From: an uncultured Clostridia bacterium
Lineage (GTDB): Bacteria; Bacillota; Clostridia; Christensenellales; CAG-1252
Direction of reading: 5' to 3'
DNA length: 39,317 bases
Assembly (NCBI GenBank): GCA_946648015.1
Contig: CAMPCZ010000004.1
Span: forward strand, 1 to 39,317
Position 1 is the stretch's first letter. Each line of letters starts with the position of its first letter. Both the position numbers and the translations under genes were made by a program. Positions 15,331 through 38,718 of the stretch are shown here, piece by piece. The notes beneath the pieces were generated by a model. The model was given only the letters and a program-made list of their open reading frames with translations, was not told where the DNA came from and made no database searches.

Positions 15331-16710
15331 TTACTCCTTATTGCCGTCCAAATACTTGGAAATGTACGCCTCTTTGATACGTTTCAACTCGCTTCTCGGC
15401 AATATGCGCAACAAATCCCACCCCAAATCGAGGGTTTCCTCGATGGTGCGATTGGTCGTAAACCCTTGTGATACGTATCTACGCTCGAACTCCTCGGCAA
15501 ACTTGGCGTACAACTTGTCGGTGGCGGTAAGGGCGGCGTCGCCCAAAATGGCCGACAGCTCTTTGCACTCTTTGCCCTTGGCATAGGCGGCAAACAACTG
15601 GTTCATCGTGTCCGCATGATCCTCACGCGTTTTGTTTTTGCCTATACCTTTGTCTTTCAGACGGCTAAGCGAAGGCAACACGTCGATGGGGGGCGTCACG
15701 CCTCTCTTGTGCAACTCGCGCGACAAAATGATCTGTCCCTCGGTGATATAGCCCGTCAAGTCGGGGATAGGGTGCGTTTTATCGTCCTCGGGCATGGTCA
15801 ATATAGGAATTTGGGTGATAGAACCCTCTTTGCCCTTGATACGCCCGGCACGCTCGTACATACAAGCAAGGTCGGTATACAAATAGCCGGGGTAACCACG
15901 GCGACCGGGCACCTCTTTACGAGCGGCGGATACTTCGCGCAATGCCTCAGCATAGTTGGTGATATCGGTCAATATAACCAACACGTGCATGCCCTTTTCA
16001 AACGCCAAATACTCGGCGCAAGTCAGGGCTACCTTGGGGGTTGCAATACGCTCTATAGCGGGGTCGTTGGCCAAGTTGGTAAACAACACGGTGCGCTCGA
16101 TGGCGCCCGTTTTGCGGAAGTCGGAGATGAAATAGTCGGCCTCCTCGTAGGTGATACCGATGGCGGCAAAGACCACGGCGAATTTGCTATCCGAATTGAG
16201 CACTTTGGCTTGGCGCGCTATTTGCGCTGCCAACTCGGCGTGCGGCAAACCGCTCATAGAAAACACGGGCAATTTTTGACCGCGCACCAAGGTATTAAGT
16301 CCGTCTATGGCCGAAATACCCGTTTGGATAAATTCGTTGGGGTAGTCGCGGCTGGCGGGATTGATGGGCGAGCCGTTGATCGACAAACGCATCTCGGGAA
16401 TGATGGCTGCACCGCCATCGCGGGGTTTGCCCATACCGTCGAACACGCGGCCCAACATATCCTCGGACACATCCAAGGTTTGGCTATGACCCAAAAAGCG
16501 TGCGCGCGAAGAGGAAATTTTGAGGCCTTGCGTATTCTCGAACAACTGCACCACGGCCTTGTCGTCGCGCACTTCGAGCACCTTGCCACGGCGAATGCTG
16601 CCGTCCTCTTGCAATATCTCGACCAACTCGTCGTACTTGACTCCTTCTACGCCCTCTACGAGCATCAAAGGCCCTACGACCTCTTTGATGGTTTTGTATT
16701 CCTTATACAT
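15331..16710 (-). CDS. ntpB: V/A-type ATPase subunit B (regulatory nucleotide-binding subunit)
   Basis: The 459-aa non-catalytic head subunit, alternating with A in the hexamer. It begins [32 protein letters not shown]. The degenerate P-loop region is [18 protein letters not shown], as is normal for subunit B, which lacks a true Walker A. The conserved [22 protein letters not shown] and [18 protein letters not shown] are also present. The start overlaps the end of ntpA by eight bases. Length is normal. Confidence 0.97.
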
Positions 16711-18472
16711 TGACCTCTCCTCCTTCTGCCAAGGCTTTGAGTTGTGCCGTCAATTCGGCCTCGATATCGTCGAACGTGGCGATCTCATCCTCCACAATAT
16801 ATTTGGCGCGGCCAATGCGCTCTTTGGCGGGACAATTCAAAATGTCGTCCAAATCGGCATAGGCGGCCACGGCCTCGTTGCCCAAGTCGTAGAACAACTT
16901 GATGAGGCGCAACATACGGTATTGCTTGGCCATCGACGTAAATGTATCCACGTCGTGAAATGCGTTTTGGTGCAAATAGTCCTCGCGCACCATTTTGGCC
17001 GTTTCCATAGTCATGCGGTCGCGATAACTCAAAGCGTCCATACCCACCAAGCGCACGATCTCGTCGAGGTTGGCTTCCTCCTGCAACACGTTCATAATAA
17101 AGGCGCGCAGTTGCATAAAGTCGTCGGCCACGTTTTGTTGATACCACTCTTGCATACGATCGGCATACAAACTGTAGCTCACCAACCAGTCGATGGCCGG
17201 GAAGTGGCGTCTATACGCCAACTGGGCGCTGAGGCCCCAAAACACCTTGACGATGCGCAAAGTAGCCTGTGATACGGGCTCGGACAAGTCGCCACCCGGA
17301 GGGGATACGGCGCCGATAGCCGATACGCTACCCACCGTATTGCCCGAACCAAGCACTTTGACGATGCCGGCACGCTCGTAGAACTCGGCCAAACGACTGG
17401 CCAAATAGGCGGGATAGCCTTCGTCGCCGGGCATTTCTTCCAATCGACCGCTCATTTCACGCAAAGCCTCGGCCCAACGCGAAGTACTGTCGGCCATAAT
17501 GGCCACGCTATAGCCCATATCGCGGAAGTATTCGGCAATGGTTATACCCGTGTATATAGAGGCCTCGCGGGCGGCCACGGGCATATCGGAAGTATTGGCG
17601 ATAAGCACCGTGCGCTGCATCAAAGGCATACCCGTCTTGGGGTCCTTGAGTTCGGGAAACTCGTTCAACACGTCTGTCATTTCGTTGCCGCGCTCGCCGC
17701 AGCCCACGTAAACGATGATCTGCGCGTCGCTCCACTTGGCCAACTGGTGTTGCACTACCGTCTTGCCGCTACCGAAGGGGCCGGGCACGGCGGCCACACC
17801 GCCCTTGGCGATGGGGAACAACGTATCAATTACGCGCTGACCGGTTACCATCGGCATAGAGGGCGTCATTTTCTCTTTGTAGGGGCGCGCCTTGCGCACG
17901 GGCCAGCGTTGCAACATACACACTTCGCGTATAGTGCCGTCCGTTGCGGTGATGGCCGCCACCGTCTCGTCTATGGTGTAGTCACCCTCGGCAATGGAGG
18001 TAAGTTTGCCCTCCACGCCATACGGCACCATTATCTTGTGCACGACGATGGGAGTCTCCTGCACCACGCCCAGCACGTCGCCCGCCTCTACCGACGAGCC
18101 GACTTGCGCAGTGGGCACAAAGTGCCATTTCTTTTGATGGTCGAGATTTTGTATCTCCATACCGCGCACGATACGATCGCCGTATTTTTTGGCAATGGCG
18201 TCCAAGGGGCGTTGAATACCATCGAAAATACTCTCGATAAGGCCGGGAGCCAATTCGACGGAAAGGGGCATACCCGTAGACACCACTTTGTCGCCTACGC
18301 CCAAGCCCGACGTCTCCTCGTAAACTTGCACCGAGGCGCGGTCACCGCGCAACTCGATCACCTCGCCGATAAGGCCCATCTCGCCCACTTTTACCACGTC
18401 GTACATTTTGACGTCGGTCATATTTTCCGCCACGATAAGCGGACCGGATACTTTGATGATTTTTCCTTGCAT
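16703..18472 (-). CDS. ntpA: V/A-type ATPase subunit A (catalytic)
   Basis: The 589-aa catalytic subunit. An N-terminal beta-barrel is followed by the bulge domain, then the P-loop [13 protein letters not shown], the catalytic-Glu motif [10 protein letters not shown], and [12 protein letters not shown]. All are as in active A subunits. It starts directly after the ntpF stop with no gap, indicating coupling. With the Na+-binding K ring encoded upstream, the enzyme should either pump Na+ at the cost of ATP or make ATP from a Na+ gradient; the direction is not shown by sequence. Confidence 0.97.
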
Positions 18473-18799
18473 TTATTTGTCCTCTCTATTGAATAGAACG
18501 TCAACCCCAAGGGCACGCTCCATTTGCTCTTTCATTTTTTCCACGGCATAGCCGTTGCTGCCCGCGTCGCTGGGGATAGGCACCACCACGGGATATGGAT
18601 CCTGCAGCATACGTTTCAAAAGGTCGTCTAAGTCGCGTGCGAACACGTCCGTCAAAAAGATGACCTTGTGGTCGCGGGCCACTTTGCGCAAGATATCGCG
18701 CGCAGCGGCGCTGTCCGAGGCGGTGTAAGCGTCCACACCCGCCGCCTTAAAGGCCAATACGCCCGTGCCCAAACCGATAATCGCTAAATCACTCGCCAT
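18473..18799 (-). CDS. ntpF: V/A-type ATPase subunit F (central stalk)
   Basis: The 108-aa Rossmann-like subunit bound to D in the rotor shaft. LAIIGLGTGVLAFKAAGVDAY is the typical N-terminal strand-loop-helix, and PYPVVVPIPSDAG the conserved middle loop. It overlaps ntpC by 11 bases and abuts ntpA. In E. hirae nomenclature the corresponding gene is called ntpG; I use the general name for subunit F. Confidence 0.92.
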   Translation of the reverse strand: MASDLAIIGLGTGVLAFKAAGVDAYTASDSAAARDILRKVARDHKVIFLTDVFARDLDDLLKRMLQDPYPVVVPIPSDAGSNGYAVEKMKEQMERALGVDVLFNREDK

Positions 18800-19754
18800 A
18801 ACTTACACGCAACCTCTCTTTGATACTCTCTTTGTCGGCACCCGCCAACTTGCCGGCCAAAATGACGCGCACGTTGGCAATGTCGTTGGTTTTGTAGCCG
18901 AAATACAGCAAAAACGGCGCTACGCCCTCGCTACTGTATCGCTGCGGCAATAGCGTACGCAAAAAGGCGCTGTCCACTGCGTTTTCGTACTTGACCAAAG
19001 GCAAACGCTTCTCTTTGGCGTCTACGGCAGCACGCACCACCTCGGTATAATCGGTTTGCAAAAACCGTCTGTCCACCGCGGTGCGCTCCCCTTTTTGCAA
19101 CAACAGCAATGTGTCCACAGATAACTTGCCGCCCTCGATCCACATACTCTCAAGCTCGGCGCGTGTGTCGGCGCGCAACGCTATCGAAATATTTTTGGTG
19201 TCTATTTGCCACTGCACGTATCCCTTGGTGCGCCTATCTTTGCACACGGACAACAGATAGGCGTATAGCGCGCGATTAAAGATGGTACTGACGCCTACGC
19301 CCGTAGCGTCGCCTCGCTCAAAGGAAGCTTGCGCCTCTTTGATGGGGGCAACCAGATAGGCAGGCAACTGATTGTAAGCGCCCGCCACGCCTTTTTTGAC
19401 GCGCTCGATGGGCACAGTACCCTCTTGCATGGGCACGGTAGGCAAATTGACGTAGGCTTGGCGCAACAAATACTCGGCGTTGTAGAAGTCCCGCGGGGCC
19501 AGGCAAAAGGCCTTGATTGCCTCGGTGGGAGCGTAGGCACGCGCAAAAGCGTACAGCTGCCCCAATTCGCCATACAGCAACTGTTCGTATGCCTCGGGCG
19601 CAACGTCGCCTTCGCCAAAACCAAACTCGCCGAGCATACGAAAAGCCTCCTCGAAGTCTTGCGCCTCGAGCAAACGGGCCAATTTGTCCTTGCCCAACAA
19701 GTATTTTTGGCGCGATATGCACATCGCGTTGACAAACGTCTTGTCCACATTCAT
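18789..19754 (-). CDS. ntpC: V/A-type ATPase subunit C (d-type collar)
   Basis: The 321-aa collar subunit that seats the central stalk on the K ring. It is helical throughout and contains YNAEYLLRQAYVN, matching the common D-x-x-N-x-x-x-L-R-A pattern of archaeal/bacterial C subunits. The C-terminus overlaps ntpF. It begins two bases after the ntpE stop. Length is close to the usual 325-350. Confidence 0.9.
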   Translation of the reverse strand: MNVDKTFVNAMCISRQKYLLGKDKLARLLEAQDFEEAFRMLGEFGFGEGDVAPEAYEQLLYGELGQLYAFARAYAPTEAIKAFCLAPRDFYNAEYLLRQAYVNLPTVPMQEGTVPIERVKKGVAGAYNQLPAYLVAPIKEAQASFERGDATGVGVSTIFNRALYAYLLSVCKDRRTKGYVQWQIDTKNISIALRADTRAELESMWIEGGKLSVDTLLLLQKGERTAVDRRFLQTDYTEVVRAAVDAKEKRLPLVKYENAVDSAFLRTLLPQRYSSEGVAPFLLYFGYKTNDIANVRVILAGKLAGADKESIKERLRVSYGE

Positions 19755-19756
19755 CT

Positions 19757-20335
19757 TCAGTTACCAAACAAGCGGTCGGCCAACTCCATTTCGTGGTCGG
19801 CAAACACGCTATCGGCCAGTGCCTCAAAGCTCAGATCCTTGTCGATTGCGCGGCCTTTTAACAACACGCCGCTCTTGACCGAAGGATCGTAGACCACCTT
19901 AAGCGCGAGGGCGCGGCAAACGTCCAAAGACTGCACGTCCCCATAGGTAATGGCGCAATCCTTGGCGATACATACCTCGTCGCCCTCGGCGGCATACGTT
20001 TTCAACATGATATCGACCAAGTGCAAATAGTCCTTGTGCTCCAAGGCGTACAAACGCTCGACGAGCCTCGACTTCACCAAAGACAGCAGCGCGCGTTTTT
20101 CGGCGAGCAAAGCTTTTTTGCCATCCATACCGGCGGACACCTTGCGACGCGCCACCATATCGGCGGCGTCCGCGTCGTCTGCGCGTGCTTGGGCGTCGGC
20201 AAAGCGCTTCATTTCCGCATTGGCTTTGTCGGTTGCCTCGCTTGCGGCAAGAACGGCCTCGGCTCGAATTTGCTCGGCGCGACTCTCGGCTTCGGCCAAG
20301 ATCGCATTCAACAATTCCTGCTTGCCTTGTTCCAT
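19757..20335 (-). CDS. ntpE: V/A-type ATPase subunit E (peripheral stalk)
   Basis: A 192-aa peripheral stalk subunit. Residues 1-90 form a long charged helix rich in Ala/Glu/Arg (AEAESRAEQIRAEAVLAASEATDK) that pairs with subunit H. The C-terminal half is the globular domain that grips the head. The start ATG overlaps the ntpK stop as TAATG, so translation is coupled. Confidence 0.92.
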   Translation of the reverse strand: MEQGKQELLNAILAEAESRAEQIRAEAVLAASEATDKANAEMKRFADAQARADDADAADMVARRKVSAGMDGKKALLAEKRALLSLVKSRLVERLYALEHKDYLHLVDIMLKTYAAEGDEVCIAKDCAITYGDVQSLDVCRALALKVVYDPSVKSGVLLKGRAIDKDLSFEALADSVFADHEMELADRLFGN

Positions 20336-20781
20336 TATTTCAACATGATACCCAACACCAACGCCAAGATCGCGTAGAACTCGATCATAGCGGGGAACAG
20401 CACGTATTTACCGCTGCCGGCGCTGTTTTTGCCGACCGCACAAATACAGGCCGCGGCCGCTTTGCCTTGCAAAGCACCCGACGCCAAGCCGCTGAAGCCC
20501 ATGGCTACGGTTGCACCGAATAGCGCCCAACCGCCCGTAACGCCCTCGGCACCTACCAAGCCGGCCAAAGCGGAGATCTTCATGACCGCCAAAACGAAAC
20601 CGTAGATACCTTGCGTAGCAGGCAACAAGGACAAGACGATGATCTTGGAGAATTTCTTGCCGTCCTCCGCCAACACGCCCGCCGAAGCGGCACCGGTCTT
20701 GTACAAGCCGTAAGCACTACCCACGCCGCACAAAATCATACACAGCGCGATACCGATTGCACCAATCGCTTTTCCATCCAT
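20335..20781 (-). CDS. ntpK: V/A-type ATPase subunit K (ion-translocating ring), Na+-type
   Basis: A 148-aa double-hairpin proteolipid with four TM helices. The TTG start in the ORF track is not used; GGAGG lies eight bases before the ATG at 20781, which is chosen. The Na+ ligands of the E. hirae ring (Leu61 carbonyl, Thr64, Gln65, Gln110, Glu139) have exact counterparts here in L53-P-A-T56-Q57, Q105 in ALQGKAAAA, and E134 in MIEFYAIL. Na+ coupling is therefore strongly suggested. A 62-base gap to ntpI, with a small hairpin, precedes it; this may raise translation of the multi-copy ring subunit. Confidence 0.95.
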   Translation of the reverse strand: MDGKAIGAIGIALCMILCGVGSAYGLYKTGAASAGVLAEDGKKFSKIIVLSLLPATQGIYGFVLAVMKISALAGLVGAEGVTGGWALFGATVAMGFSGLASGALQGKAAAACICAVGKNSAGSGKYVLFPAMIEFYAILALVLGIMLK

Positions 20782-20803
20782 ATTGTTTTCCTCCAATATT
20801 TAT

Positions 20804-20815
20804 CCGCTATTGCGG
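20804..20815 (-). other. Small hairpin in the ntpI-ntpK gap
   Basis: CCGC-N4-GCGG lies 11 bases upstream of the GGAGG site of ntpK. It is too weak for a terminator and may affect initiation or mRNA processing. Confidence 0.3.
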
Positions 20816-20843
20816 TATTTTTCCTTATCCGCCCGTGTGCATT

Positions 20844-22877
20844 CTATTTCTGCTCGCTTTCGGCGGCAAAATAGATATGCTCGTGCGTACTGCCGATGGG
20901 CGTAAACAGTTCGCCCTCTCCCTCGAAGAAGCGCCCGAAGAACTCAACGTATTGCAGACGCGAATCGTGGATATATGCGCCCAAAAGGCTCATAGCTATA
21001 TTGAACAAGTTGCCTACCAAAATGATGACTACGCCAAAGATGACGCCGATGGCGCCCTTGGGGAACAGGGTCTCGATAGCCAAAGTTTTGGTAAATATAG
21101 CGGCGATTTGCGCACCCGACAACATCAAGCCGTACAGACGCGCGTAGCTCAAAATATCCGACATATAATTGATAAGGCCATAGGCCGCGCCGCCGATTTT
21201 GGTGATCTTGCCAAACCCTTTGGCGGTAATGCCCGACGTGAGAATGCCGAGGCCGATAAAGCCCAGCGTAACGTACATGGCGATATTGTCGAAAGTCACA
21301 CGGTCGGAAGCCATGGCAAACACCCACACCGCAAAGGATAGCATACCAAGACCCCACACGATGCCGCCGAAGATGCCGTCCAAATACTGCCCTCGACGGA
21401 AGTGTTGCACCGCTTTGAGGAACAAGCTGACCGCAATTTGCACAACGCCCAACCCCAAGCACCACAACAAAATGGAGGGCACGGTGATACCCATAATGGT
21501 GGTAGGCGCCTCGATGGCGTCCAGATACTTGGAATAAAAGCCACCGTACGTCCCCGAATAGAACCCTATATTGAAAGGCTTATCGCCCAACACAGTGCGC
21601 AGCAAATCGAAACCGAAGAAACTGTCGAAAAGCACGCCGAAACACATGGCGAAAATACCGCCCAGTACAAACACCTTGGCCATGCGATACAGCGAAGTGC
21701 CGGGGCGGCGCTTGGACGCTATCACCAAACCGCCCACCAGCATCAACAAACCGTAGACGGCGTCCGCCATGATGACGCCCATAAACAGGGAGAAGAAAAA
21801 GCTCATGACGGGGTTGGGATCGAGCGCGCCATACGCGGGCGCGCTATACATATTGGTAATAGCCTCGAAATTCTGCACCACTTTGTTGTTTTTCATCAAC
21901 ACGGGCGCGGTCTCGGTGCGAGGCACCGGCTCGGCCTCCACAAAAACGGCTTCGGTCGCCTTTTGCGCGGCCTCTGCAACGCGCTCCACCGCCTCGGTGG
22001 GCACGTAAGCCTGCATCACAAAAGTGGATTGGGTCGAAAGCATACCTTCGCTTGCCGTCTCTTTCTCTTTGACAAAGCCCAAATAATCGTCGTACAACTT
22101 GAGTAGGCGCACGTCTTCTTTCATTTGGCACGCCTCTTGCACCAATGCGTTTTGCTTGGCCAAGCAGTCGGCTATCGACTCGTCCAAGGCTGCAATATGC
22201 GCCTCCGCCGTGGTTTCATCGCGGAAAGGACAACGCTGGAAGCCGGCAAGCGCCAACGTCTCGTCCACCTCGGCGCGGTGGGTATAAAACGCAACTACGC
22301 CTATGGCTACCCCATTACCGGCGGCGCCGTATGAATGCACGCAGCACGCATCTATCTGCGATAGAGCCGCTATGGTGGCATTCACTTTGTCGGTGGGCAA
22401 AATGCCCAAATATACCGCCGTTTTGGCGGTATCCGCGAAGGTGGACAACGCGCAAGGCACCACAAGATAGGGCTCGTAACTCTTGCGCTCTTGGGTCAAC
22501 TTGGCCACCTCGGCACGATAGGCCGCTTGTCTGTCGGCCAAACTCTCTACTGCGGCGAGCACACCTTCCACTTGGGCGCGTCGCTCTGCCACTTGGTAAA
22601 ACTCGTCCAGGGTTACGCCAAAGCCATCTTTGGCCATACCCTCTCGCATCTCCTTGGGCGCGTCGCCGATAAGACCGACCAAAAACGCCAAATCGCGCTG
22701 TACCCTATCACTCTCTTTGGCGGTGTCGGTATTGGGCAACTGCAAAAAAGCGGCGTTCTCGTTATCCTCACACGACAGTACCTGCACGGCACCCGTACGT
22801 TGCAAGGCGTTGAGCAAACCGTCCCGCTCGGCAATTTTGCCCAATATGGTCATTTTGGACATTTCAGCAATTGCCAT
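20844..22877 (-). CDS. ntpI: V/A-type ATPase subunit I (membrane stator, a-type)
   Basis: A 677-aa stator subunit. Residues 1-345 form the cytoplasmic arm, with helical stretches that anchor the peripheral stalks. From about residue 365 onward there are seven or eight TM helices, starting VMSFFFSLFMGVIMADAVYGLLM and including SYARLYGLMLSGAQIA, whose Arg near LSYARL is the essential rotor-facing residue of the family. It overlaps ntpH by 14 bases. MAIAEMSKMTILG is the usual N-terminus of NtpI; GGAG lies ten bases upstream. A later ATG at 22862 is possible but less typical. Confidence 0.95.
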   Translation of the reverse strand: MAIAEMSKMTILGKIAERDGLLNALQRTGAVQVLSCEDNENAAFLQLPNTDTAKESDRVQRDLAFLVGLIGDAPKEMREGMAKDGFGVTLDEFYQVAERRAQVEGVLAAVESLADRQAAYRAEVAKLTQERKSYEPYLVVPCALSTFADTAKTAVYLGILPTDKVNATIAALSQIDACCVHSYGAAGNGVAIGVVAFYTHRAEVDETLALAGFQRCPFRDETTAEAHIAALDESIADCLAKQNALVQEACQMKEDVRLLKLYDDYLGFVKEKETASEGMLSTQSTFVMQAYVPTEAVERVAEAAQKATEAVFVEAEPVPRTETAPVLMKNNKVVQNFEAITNMYSAPAYGALDPNPVMSFFFSLFMGVIMADAVYGLLMLVGGLVIASKRRPGTSLYRMAKVFVLGGIFAMCFGVLFDSFFGFDLLRTVLGDKPFNIGFYSGTYGGFYSKYLDAIEAPTTIMGITVPSILLWCLGLGVVQIAVSLFLKAVQHFRRGQYLDGIFGGIVWGLGMLSFAVWVFAMASDRVTFDNIAMYVTLGFIGLGILTSGITAKGFGKITKIGGAAYGLINYMSDILSYARLYGLMLSGAQIAAIFTKTLAIETLFPKGAIGVIFGVVIILVGNLFNIAMSLLGAYIHDSRLQYVEFFGRFFEGEGELFTPIGSTHEHIYFAAESEQK

Positions 22878-23184
22878 TGAAAATAATCTCCATCAAATCG
22901 TTGACCAAGCCGTCCACTTGCGCCAACCCGCTTTCGTGCAAAGCGGCACATTGGTCGGCATATTGCTTGGCGATATCGGTCGCAGCGGCGTCGGCCTGCA
23001 TTTCGGCCCGAGCCAGCGTTTCGGCGCGGCGAGCCTTGACTTGGCGCTTGCATTCGGCCCAATTCGCCTCGGTTTTGGTCTGCTGCTCGCGCATGGCGAC
23101 ATTAGCCTCCGTCTCGGCGGCGGCTATCAACTCTTGCGCCTGTCGTTCGGTATTTTTGACACTCTCTAAAACTTCGTCCAACAT
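22864..23184 (-). CDS. ntpH: V/A-type ATPase subunit H/G (peripheral stalk helix)
   Basis: A 106-aa protein that is almost entirely one charged helix (ERQAQELIAAAETEANVAMREQQTK), the normal form of the stalk subunit that coils with subunit E. The ORF track extends to 23259, but that extension would run through the promoter. GGAG lies seven bases before the ATG at 23184, giving MLDEVLESVKNTE, which fits the family. It is the first gene of the ATPase operon. Confidence 0.88.
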   Translation of the reverse strand: MLDEVLESVKNTERQAQELIAAAETEANVAMREQQTKTEANWAECKRQVKARRAETLARAEMQADAAATDIAKQYADQCAALHESGLAQVDGLVNDLMEIIFNGNC

Positions 23185-23229
23185 ACTTACTCCGTCTTTT
23201 GCGTAGCGCTCACGCTTTTGCAATGATTT

Positions 23230-23259
23230 ATTATACAATAAGTTCGGTCTGTTTGTCAA
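23230..23259 (-). promoter_or_regulatory. Sigma-A-type promoter of the V-ATPase operon
   Basis: TTGACA, 18-base spacer, TATAAT on the minus strand. It lies directly after the ktrA stop, and gives a leader of about 40 bases before ntpH. Confidence 0.85.
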
Positions 23260-35828: not shown

Positions 35829-36533
35829 TTATTGCACAATAATCTCTTTTTTGCAAAATAGAGGCTGCGTTGCGTCCAATTCGTAGGCTTTGCCGCCCGT
35901 CGAAACCACTCGCTTTATTTGCCCGTCGCCGAAGTGCAGAGCCACGTTATCCTCCAATGCATAAGCGTGCATCCCCTCTCGCCGCACCACTTGGTCAAAC
36001 TCGGGTCGCAGGTTGTAGTGGGGCGTCATAGCGCCATGCAACAACCCCCACCCGTCCATCAGACAATAGTCGTTGCCCAGGCCTTCTATCATTTGGGTAT
36101 CGGTATACATACGGTCAAACCAGCAAATAGCGCCGGCCGACAATCCCGCTATCGGCACGCCGCGCCTATAGGCCGACACGATGCGCCGCCCCAGCCCCGT
36201 GCGCCGCCACTCGGCCAGCATAAAGCCCGTATCTCCGCCGCCGATGTAGATCAGGTCGCTTTGCTCTATTTTGGCTTGCATTTCGTCCTCGCTCATCTCG
36301 CCGCCGCGCACGGTCAGCACGAGGTCGGCCTTTATGTCAAATACCGAGGTATACGTCTTGCGAAAGGTATTGAAATATGGCTTGCTGTCGTGGCTCGCGG
36401 TAGGTACAAACAATGCCGTTGGGCGCTTGCCCTCGGCATGGCGGAAGGCCAGCGTTGCACAGTAGGCGTCAATGCCCAGGGTCGATTTGGCTCTGAGGTC
36501 GCCGCCCCCTATACAAATCAAAGTTTTTTCCAT
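35829..36533 (-). CDS. Peptidase S51 family protein (dipeptidase E / cyanophycinase-like)
   Basis: A 234-aa cytoplasmic serine peptidase with a class I glutamine amidotransferase-like fold. IYIGGGDTGFMLAEW is the first hallmark and AGLSAGAICWF holds the nucleophile S132 in the G-x-S-A-G-A elbow. HGAMTPHYN provides candidate His residues. PepE-type enzymes cleave Asp-X dipeptides; cyanophycinase relatives cleave beta-Asp-Arg. Which applies here cannot be told. AGAGGTGAT lies before the ATG. Divergent from the M1-like lipoprotein gene, with 79 bases between the start codons. Confidence 0.9.
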   Translation of the reverse strand: MEKTLICIGGGDLRAKSTLGIDAYCATLAFRHAEGKRPTALFVPTASHDSKPYFNTFRKTYTSVFDIKADLVLTVRGGEMSEDEMQAKIEQSDLIYIGGGDTGFMLAEWRRTGLGRRIVSAYRRGVPIAGLSAGAICWFDRMYTDTQMIEGLGNDYCLMDGWGLLHGAMTPHYNLRPEFDQVVRREGMHAYALEDNVALHFGDGQIKRVVSTGGKAYELDATQPLFCKKEIIVQ

Positions 36534-36612: not shown

Positions 36613-37899
36613 ATGAAACGCCTATTTTTAGCCATGCTTTGCCTTGTCATATTGTTGTCCACCCTGCTTTGCGGCTGTCGGCACGCGGCGCCTTCCGCGC
36701 CACGACAACAAGAGTTGGAGCCCATCGCCTATTCGGCGCAAATCGTTCTCGACGCCGCCACCAAGCGAATGGAGGGGACACTCCAATTCACATTCGTCTC
36801 GCCCGAAAACGGTCTTAAGGAGTTATGCGTTTGGGCGCCTCACGGCTTAGACGGGGCGCAATGCAACGAGCAAAGCCTATCCCTCGAGCGGCAAGAGAAC
36901 TACACGCTGCTTGCCCTACCCACTGTCGCCGAGGCGGGCAGCGAATGGGATATACGCCTACGCTTTTCTATGGATTGCGCCTATGGAGCGGGCTTCGTCG
37001 CCCGCGATTTTATTCCCCTTGTGTGCGCCTTTGACCAAGGATTTCTGCGCCCCCAAGCACCCGACTACGCGCCCTATTTTCGACCATGGGCGGGGCAGGT
37101 CGACATGACGATCGTCGCACCAAAGACCCAGGTGGTGCTGTGCTCCGGGCAACTGGTCGAGCGCACCTATCCCGACGGCATACAGAGCGTACGCTACGCC
37201 TTGGACGTGGCGCGCCCCAACCAAATGATAGCCGACCCCTACCTCGCACGGCGCGAAGCCACCGTGGGGCATACCCATTGGGAATACTACGCCACTTCGT
37301 TGCATGACCCCGTGTGGCAAACTCTGCTATCGCTCGCCGACGCCGCCACTACGCTGTGGGGTGAGCCTGCACACGACCACGTGGCCATCGTGCAAGGGTC
37401 ATATGCCGCCACACCCGCCTTGGTCGGAATGGCGGCCACCGATATGCGCACCATAGCCGAAGCGGTAGCGGCCATGTGGGCGGGAGCGCCCGCCGCCGAT
37501 GCTTGGATCACGCCCTCTATCGAGCGATTTGCGCTGTATCGCCTGTATGTGGATATAGACGAAAAGGCCGCCTATAAACTGCGTGACGAAGCGCGGCAAA
37601 CCCTTTTGGAATACCAACTGTTATTTGGCCAAACGGGGGACGCCGCACGTATGGACAAACCGCTCGCAAGCTATGACGAGAACGCCTATCGAGCGCTGCT
37701 CGAGAACAAAGGACTGCTGCTATGGAGCACGTTGCGCGAAATAGCGGGCGAAGCGATAGACCGCGCCATACTCGCCTTGCGCCGATCGCCGACGGCACCC
37801 GATACGGCTGCGGTGATGGCCGCGGTGAGCAAGACCACCCATCACGATTATAGCGACTATTTTGCCGCCTGGCTCGGGGGCAACGTGTTATTGGTATAA
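36613..37899 (+). CDS. M1 aminopeptidase-like lipoprotein with lost zinc and catalytic residues (probable pseudoenzyme)
   Basis: A 428-aa lipoprotein; the signal peptide ends LLCGC, with Cys22 as lipid site. Residues 38-125 match the M1 N-terminal beta-domain (YSAQIVLDAATKRMEGTLQFTF). Residues 130-180 fit the following strand region of bacterial M1 proteins (DFIPLVCAFDQGF... then a DMTIVAP strand). The zinc helix, normally IAHELAHQWWG, reads I281-A-E-A-V-A-A-M-W-A-G291, so His, Glu and His of HExxH are replaced by E, A and A. The next ligand segment, normally WLxEGxA, reads WITPSIERFALY. The C-terminal part, NAYRALLENKGLLLWSTLREIAGEAIDRAIL and DYSDYFAAWLGG, keeps the M1 pattern. So the fold is kept and the chemistry lost. 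Domain call by eye, not by search. Confidence 0.7.
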   Translation: MKRLFLAMLCLVILLSTLLCGCRHAAPSAPRQQELEPIAYSAQIVLDAATKRMEGTLQFTFVSPENGLKELCVWAPHGLDGAQCNEQSLSLERQENYTLLALPTVAEAGSEWDIRLRFSMDCAYGAGFVARDFIPLVCAFDQGFLRPQAPDYAPYFRPWAGQVDMTIVAPKTQVVLCSGQLVERTYPDGIQSVRYALDVARPNQMIADPYLARREATVGHTHWEYYATSLHDPVWQTLLSLADAATTLWGEPAHDHVAIVQGSYAATPALVGMAATDMRTIAEAVAAMWAGAPAADAWITPSIERFALYRLYVDIDEKAAYKLRDEARQTLLEYQLLFGQTGDAARMDKPLASYDENAYRALLENKGLLLWSTLREIAGEAIDRAILALRRSPTAPDTAAVMAAVSKTTHHDYSDYFAAWLGGNVLLV

Positions 37900-37959: not shown

Positions 37960-38718
37960 TCATAGGTACAATATGGCCAAGGCAATGAGGAATTGCGCCG
38001 CATAGTAGGTGATGTGATTGGACGCTATCATCAACTTGCTCTCGGGGTGCAAAGCACCCGTCCTTTGATAGTCGGCAGGTTTGCTGAAATAAGTAATGGA
38101 CAAGATGAGGTCGGATACGATAAAGAGTACCGCGCCCGCCAACAGCAAAGTATTGGCGGTGCAAGCGCAAACCGCCACCAACTGCCATATCGAATAGACC
38201 ACAAACCAGGCCAAAAGCAAAGCATAGCACACGCTGGGCAGCAAAAACTTGCCGAAGCGCATCTTCATCACGCCTATACTTACGGCAAATATGGCCGCTA
38301 CCAGCCCTATGGCCACCAGGGCCGACCACAACAAATTGAGTTGCGTGCCGCCAAAGCGCAATGCGCTAGCCGCAATATACAGCACGTGGCCTATGCCAAA
38401 CGCCGACATTCCTACGTATGTCATGGCGTCGGCGTCCTTTTGCGCGCCGTCGTAGCCCAGTCCTTTGAGAAAAATTTTGCAGTCCAGCGTGATGTCGCCC
38501 ACCAAGCCGCACACCAAACCGCCTATCATCAATAGAGCCGAGGTCAAGTGCGCTTGGGGGTCGGCGTTGCACAATAGGGCTGCCACGGCGACGGCCACAA
38601 ACAGCAACGACGTCAAACTTTTCAGACCAATGGCCAATGCCGACGAATACTTGTCGCGCACCACGCAAAATGCCGCGAGGGTCACTACACCCAATGCCAA
38701 AAAAATATACGGATACAT
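37960..38718 (-). CDS. YhhN family integral membrane protein (lysoplasmalogenase-like)
   Basis: A 252-aa membrane protein with about eight TM helices. The ORF track starts 15 codons early; AAGGAG seven bases before the ATG at 38718 gives MYPYIFLALGVVTLAAF. GLVGDITLDCKIFLKGL, FGIGHVLYIAA and GAVLFIVSDLILSITYFSK are the YhhN/TMEM86 signature regions with conserved Asp, His and Asp. Animal TMEM86 and Legionella relatives hydrolyse lysoplasmalogen; many clostridia make plasmalogens, so a lipid-turnover role is plausible but not shown. It is 45 bases after the ABM gene and may be co-transcribed. Confidence 0.82.
   Translation of the reverse strand: MYPYIFLALGVVTLAAFCVVRDKYSSALAIGLKSLTSLLFVAVAVAALLCNADPQAHLTSALLMIGGLVCGLVGDITLDCKIFLKGLGYDGAQKDADAMTYVGMSAFGIGHVLYIAASALRFGGTQLNLLWSALVAIGLVAAIFAVSIGVMKMRFGKFLLPSVCYALLLAWFVVYSIWQLVAVCACTANTLLLAGAVLFIVSDLILSITYFSKPADYQRTGALHPESKLMIASNHITYYAAQFLIALAILYL

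Follow-up and report, generated by a model that had tools for sequence, protein, structure and literature searches.

The window, by which we mean the whole stretch of 39,317 nucleotides that was analysed, carries downstream of spoIIE a gene for a lipoprotein of the M1 peptidase family in which the residues of the catalytic site have been replaced (Table 1). Its reading frame opens with the ATG at 36613 and closes with the stop codon at 37897-37899, giving 428 codons with no internal stop, exactly as the sequence-only reading of this DNA had described it. The gene lies between a divergent gene for a peptidase S51 homologue and a convergent YhhN gene. The 79-bp gap that separates it from the S51 gene was searched for a shared regulated promoter and yielded only matches at chance level. 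The encoded protein begins with a signal peptide and a lipobox cysteine (MKRLFLAMLCLVILLSTLLCGC; motif judged by reading). The lipobox itself, L19-C-G-C22, is slightly unusual in having a cysteine at position -2, and those of the dead orthologues (LAAC, LVGC and TVGC) read as clean. The lipoprotein anchoring claimed in the earlier reading therefore holds at the level of the motif, for the window protein as for its orthologues, and the protein is probably held by a lipid anchor at the outer face of the membrane.

Table 1. Features of the window discussed in the text, with their positions and the grounds for each assignment
Feature	Position	Strand	Basis or remark
Catalytically dead M1-family (two-domain type) lipoprotein, 428 aa	36613..37899	+	Open reading frame, profile of active relatives, structure and fold match, catalytic positions
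Signal peptide and lipobox L-C-G-C22	36613..36678	+	By reading and from orthologue lipoboxes; lipidation inferred
Zinc-helix segment IAEAVAAMW (residues 281-289)	37453..37479	+	Replaces IxHExAHQW; neither zinc His retained
Third-ligand segment WITPSIERF (298-306)	37504..37530	+	In place of W[IL]DEGLAEY; Glu replaced by Pro301
Stretch D316-L337	37558..37623	+	D316, A320, A327 and Y334 invariant in dead orthologues, atypical of active relatives
ENKGLLLW (364-371)	37702..37725	+	In place of YxKGxLLF; catalytic Tyr replaced by Glu364; W371 invariant in dead orthologues
A419-W420 at the C-terminus	37867..37872	+	Retained from the M1 ancestor
Peptidase S51 homologue, divergent neighbour	35829..36533	-	Pair with the dead M1 gene kept in 4/4 carrier genomes
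YhhN gene, convergent neighbour	37960..38718	-	
V-type ATPase gene cluster	15331..23259		
V-type ATPase A subunit	16703..18472		Species marker

Taken alone, the window protein has no match among Pfam, NCBIfam, PHROG or the PDB sequences, and since neither Pfam nor NCBIfam recognises it, automatic annotation overlooks it altogether. A direct search with PF01433 did not reach it, and a first scan of contigs with the protein as single query found no relative. Whole-genome searches of the family and the order matched, outside the genus, proteins that contain HE[TIL]AHQWW, and the three of these that were scanned match PF01433 at 1e-12 to 1e-16. A profile built from 15 active M1 lipoproteins of the same order (A2), from which dead members were excluded, retrieved the window protein (E 3.1e-22) as well as its orthologue in genome G017 (E 4.9e-22). 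When this search was re-run with controls, the four dead orthologues scored 86.6 (the window protein, E 8.7e-24), 83.2, 49.5 and 35.1 bits, against a maximum of 4.8 among 364 shuffled or reversed sequences. A second profile, made from ten active Clostridia proteins, gave the window protein 27.5 bits with controls at or below 6.7, and hhalign aligned the four dead orthologues with these ten active proteins over 342 columns at a probability of 98.7% and E 2e-16. The M1 profile search suggested in the earlier reading thus failed with PF01433 itself and succeeded with a profile of active relatives.

Given an alignment with 46 active homologues, AlphaFold2 models the window protein (pLDDT 84.8, pTM 0.79) as an N-terminal beta domain followed by a thermolysin-like catalytic domain. 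Among full-length structures in the PDB the nearest match is a two-domain M1 peptidase from Deinococcus radiodurans (E ~1e-20, TM ~0.61), which is followed by IRAP, ERAP and LTA4H, and the best 50 fold matches listed for the model are M1 peptidases without exception. Prediction from the single sequence gives no usable fold (pLDDT 35), so that the AlphaFold2 model leans on the alignment of active relatives and adds no independent evidence; we take the profile results, and not the model, as the independent evidence for M1 kinship. Judged by these profiles, the protein is an M1 homologue, its kinship beyond chance. One might suspect, from the empty database searches and the failed single-sequence fold, that the protein is not M1-like and resembles the family by accident. 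We give this next to no credence in view of the profile scores relative to controls, the hhalign result, the full-length collinearity and the fold match, the A2 score of 86.6 bits against controls of no more than 4.8 being enough to rule it out. The same four lines of evidence bear out the M1 fold that had been read from the sequence, and the structure prediction and fold search proposed along with it return a two-domain M1 peptidase as best match.

In the alignment to active relatives, the His, Glu and His of the zinc helix are replaced by Glu, Ala and Ala, a register also backed by the orthologue L002 (ITEKVVGQW). A larger alignment (A4) shifts the helix by one residue and would retain a Glu at the general-base position; the register is thus uncertain by one residue, and both metal-binding histidines are lost in either. 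The third Glu of the HExxH-x18-E site is gone as well. The replacements at HExxH and at the third Glu had been recognised in the sequence-only reading and stand, save that the alternative register keeps one Glu; the loss of the catalytic Tyr to Glu364 and of the Glu of GxMEN had gone unnoticed there. In active M1 enzymes the latter residue binds the N-terminus of the substrate. With no zinc ligands, at most one general base and no Glu for the substrate N-terminus, the protein cannot act as an M1 enzyme, and its orthologues L002, L003 and L005 likewise retain none of the zinc ligands. Of 76 positions that are conserved among active relatives within the family, 16 keep their residue in at least three of the four dead proteins, Y225, D296, W298, G379 and W420 among them. 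Elsewhere all four share a residue that differs from the usual active one (for example D316, A320, A327, Y334, W371 and Y413), which, with n = 4 sequences, is suggestive rather than strong evidence.

The carriers of the dead gene, genomes G000, G014, G016 and G017, form a single clade (support 100/99) in a tree of the V-type ATPase A subunit, with G015 and G018 falling outside it. The three orthologues of the window protein occupy the same locus and have likewise lost the catalytic set, so that the comparison of orthologues proposed earlier shows the loss in all four members of the clade. With the catalytic columns left out, the M1 tree also unites the four dead proteins (98) and sets them next to the family's active proteins. 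In the outlying G018, also placed in this genus, the M1 protein is intact and its gene stands in a different context; no M1 protein was seen in G015, a genome that is 54% complete. This distribution is most simply read as a single loss, on the branch leading to the four carriers. As the gene neighbourhoods differ, the dead gene may be either a moved orthologue of the active gene or a surviving paralogue. The S51 and dead M1 genes stand together in all four carriers (the window, L031, L032 and L033), and the S51 and M1 genes are on separate contigs in G019 and in the genomes of genus g2 that were checked.

Is the protein kept for a purpose, or is it on its way out? Slow decay, in which cutting lost its use and the gene, with selection weak and relaxed, drifts toward loss with no new role, is the main rival to a role in binding or scaffolding. 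The dead protein does diverge rapidly, outpacing its active relatives: between G000 and G014 its identity is 29%, with 77% in the neighbouring S51 protein, which points to weak constraint relative to its neighbours. Active M1 pairs from genus g2 keep 43-66% identity at S51 identities of 67-84%, and the ratio of M1 to S51 distances, derived from identities, is 2.6-4.6 in the dead clade and 1.9-4.3 (mostly ~2.3) in active pairs. Many genomes of the order, moreover, are without the gene. Against decay, however, stand four intact dead frames at 24-31% identity. Neutral substitution of the window frame simulated to 31% identity introduced 12.8 stops on average and left none of 200 frames intact, and indels would lower the survival of neutral frames further; these genes are therefore not neutral relics. 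Identity between the window gene and L002 is about 0.46/0.56/0.33 at codon positions 1/2/3, the second positions being the most conserved, which indicates that selection acts on the protein, and new residues have become fixed in all four dead proteins. A lost catalytic motif in a maintained protein is one mark of a pseudopeptidase, and the earlier view of maintenance rather than decay agrees with the intact frames and the simulation. We accordingly regard slow decay as unlikely, if still a reading to be reckoned with.

Heteromeric peptidases with one dead subunit exist, and one could imagine the protein serving an active M1 paralogue in a regulatory or structural capacity; two genomes of family f4 do hold a dead copy beside an M1 copy without that flag. 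The active paralogue that the sequence-only reading had suggested looking for did not appear, however: PF01433 matches nothing in the window genome or in its three sisters, a search of the carrier genomes with the family profile gave no other convincing match, and the only M1 match in the paralogue search of the genus was the own copy of the outlying G018. Such a partnership is largely ruled out for the carrier clade and strikes us as very improbable. A new enzyme, the fold having gained another active or metal site, deserves slightly more thought, because pseudoenzymes with migrated or new chemistry are known (PMC10211241) and some newly conserved residues are, in sequence, close to the old cleft. 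The search for a second metal site among residues invariant in the four orthologues nevertheless found no invariant His, and the invariant Asp, Tyr and Trp compose no recognisable metal motif, which makes this reading improbable too.

What could be the role of a protein of this kind? We consider it probable that the gene goes back to a membrane-anchored M1 zinc aminopeptidase of the two-domain type, that zinc binding and catalysis were lost once, on the stem of the four-species clade, and that the protein has since been retained as a surface pseudopeptidase for binding or scaffolding. Binding or scaffolding strikes us as its most likely role; in the pseudo-metallopeptidases covered by a review, either the old cleft or another surface serves binding (PMC11266112). 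Its non-catalytic action might consist in holding a peptide in the altered cleft, as the sequence-only reading had proposed and even though the GxMEN Glu is gone, or, alternatively, in engaging a partner protein through the helices that follow the old zinc site, where new residues became invariant. That relatives have lost catalysis repeatedly suggests an active ancestor that was already engaged in binding or served a structural purpose, a role for which cutting could be dispensed with.

The two-domain M1 of Deinococcus radiodurans (PDB 6a8z, 6ifg, 6kp0) resembles the window protein in comprising the beta and catalytic domains only, in ~430 residues; it is an active zinc enzyme, whereas the window protein has no catalytic or zinc residues and bears a lipoprotein signal. 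Direct homologues with the same domain plan are the short M1 lipoprotein peptidases of Clostridia and Christensenellales (e.g. L004, L026, L102 and L141), many of which, among the active ones, carry a lipoprotein-type signal. These active proteins have the intact HExxH-x18-E, Tyr and GxMEN that the dead ones lack, and at ~480 aa, with a longer N-terminal domain, they exceed the 397-428 aa of the dead proteins. The yeast M1 pseudopeptidase Tma108, the sole M1 entry in a 2024 review of pseudo-metallopeptidases, is similar in its proposed non-enzymatic binding role, but it is eukaryotic, associated with the ribosome and retains the HExxH site (PMC11266112). The TFIID subunit TAF2 is predicted to use an aminopeptidase-like fold as a structural part (PMC4309443), but belongs to a large nuclear complex of eukaryotes and is not a lipoprotein.

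With profile A2, the M1 lipoprotein family was found in 290 of 396 sampled genomes of Christensenellales; about a quarter of them show no such gene, and its role is therefore not essential. The name of the order was deduced from the organisms to which the nearest named loci belong. Among 219 aligned homologous frames, a sample enriched in weak scorers, HExxH is kept in 193, and of these 191 have the third Glu and 191 the Tyr. The motif is not intact in 23 proteins, from families f1, f4, f19, f23, f24, f27 and f31, which is a lower bound for the sample because the inspection covered the weak scorers and only a sample of the strong ones. Some retain most of it (HEVAY in L087, HEVAR in L202, KETIH in L212, NEIAH in L227), and the others have lost it completely. 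By parsimony, the HExxH state changed at least eight times on the M1 tree, a count that is approximate, given the weakness of the deep branches and the risk of long-branch attraction. Firmer evidence of recurrence is the presence of both active and HExxH-less states within each of the genera g1, g25, g33 and g46. Active and dead genes of g46 share their gene order (neighbour families 1-5), so that for this one genus loss in place is evident. The other HExxH-less lipoproteins (L086, L089, L091 and L092 of g46; L212 and L214; L088, L237 and L239-L242) are of the same family and show the same kind of loss as the window protein; they differ from it in being separate losses by parsimony and, in g46, in remaining at the ancestral locus. 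It is conceivable, and we put it forward tentatively, that a second, non-catalytic function of the M1 surface lipoprotein in Christensenellales predates the losses, so that catalysis could be given up in place, time and again, without giving up the protein.

Animals and plants offer well-known examples of pseudoenzymes, and the pseudopeptidase as a kind is already known; a literature search for pseudoenzymes of Christensenellales found none. As far as the literature searched shows, what is new is a bacterial M1 lipoprotein that lacks a zinc site altogether and has arisen more than once: its active site has been lost, by parsimony, at least eight times in one order of mostly uncultured Clostridia. 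If the second function is the older one, the paired active and dead orthologues would form a natural set that separates two functions of a peptidase. Such pairs make the role of a peptidase besides cutting open to direct test.

Some further observations concern the wider family. In L089, L091, L092, L005, L002 and the window protein the first zinc His has become Glu and the Glu has become Gly, Ala or Lys (an E-G-[VI] pattern); the sharing of this replacement across separate losses is possibly convergence. Two genomes of family f4, G390 (L220 and L235) and G218 (L232 and L242), contain both dead and not-flagged-dead M1 copies, and there a dead-subunit partnership is possible. In-frame stops interrupt the matched M1 region of L217 (G056, TAA), L224 (G030, TGA), L228 (G043, TAG) and L234 (G096, TGA), which are possibly pseudogenes or assembly errors. 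Finally, the active M1 lipoprotein genes L274 (G067), L035, L036 and L037 adjoin a gene that reads to us like one for a PRC-barrel protein; such a neighbour occurs beside active M1 genes of the distant families f24 and f1 (genus g2) and is absent beside the dead genes of g1.
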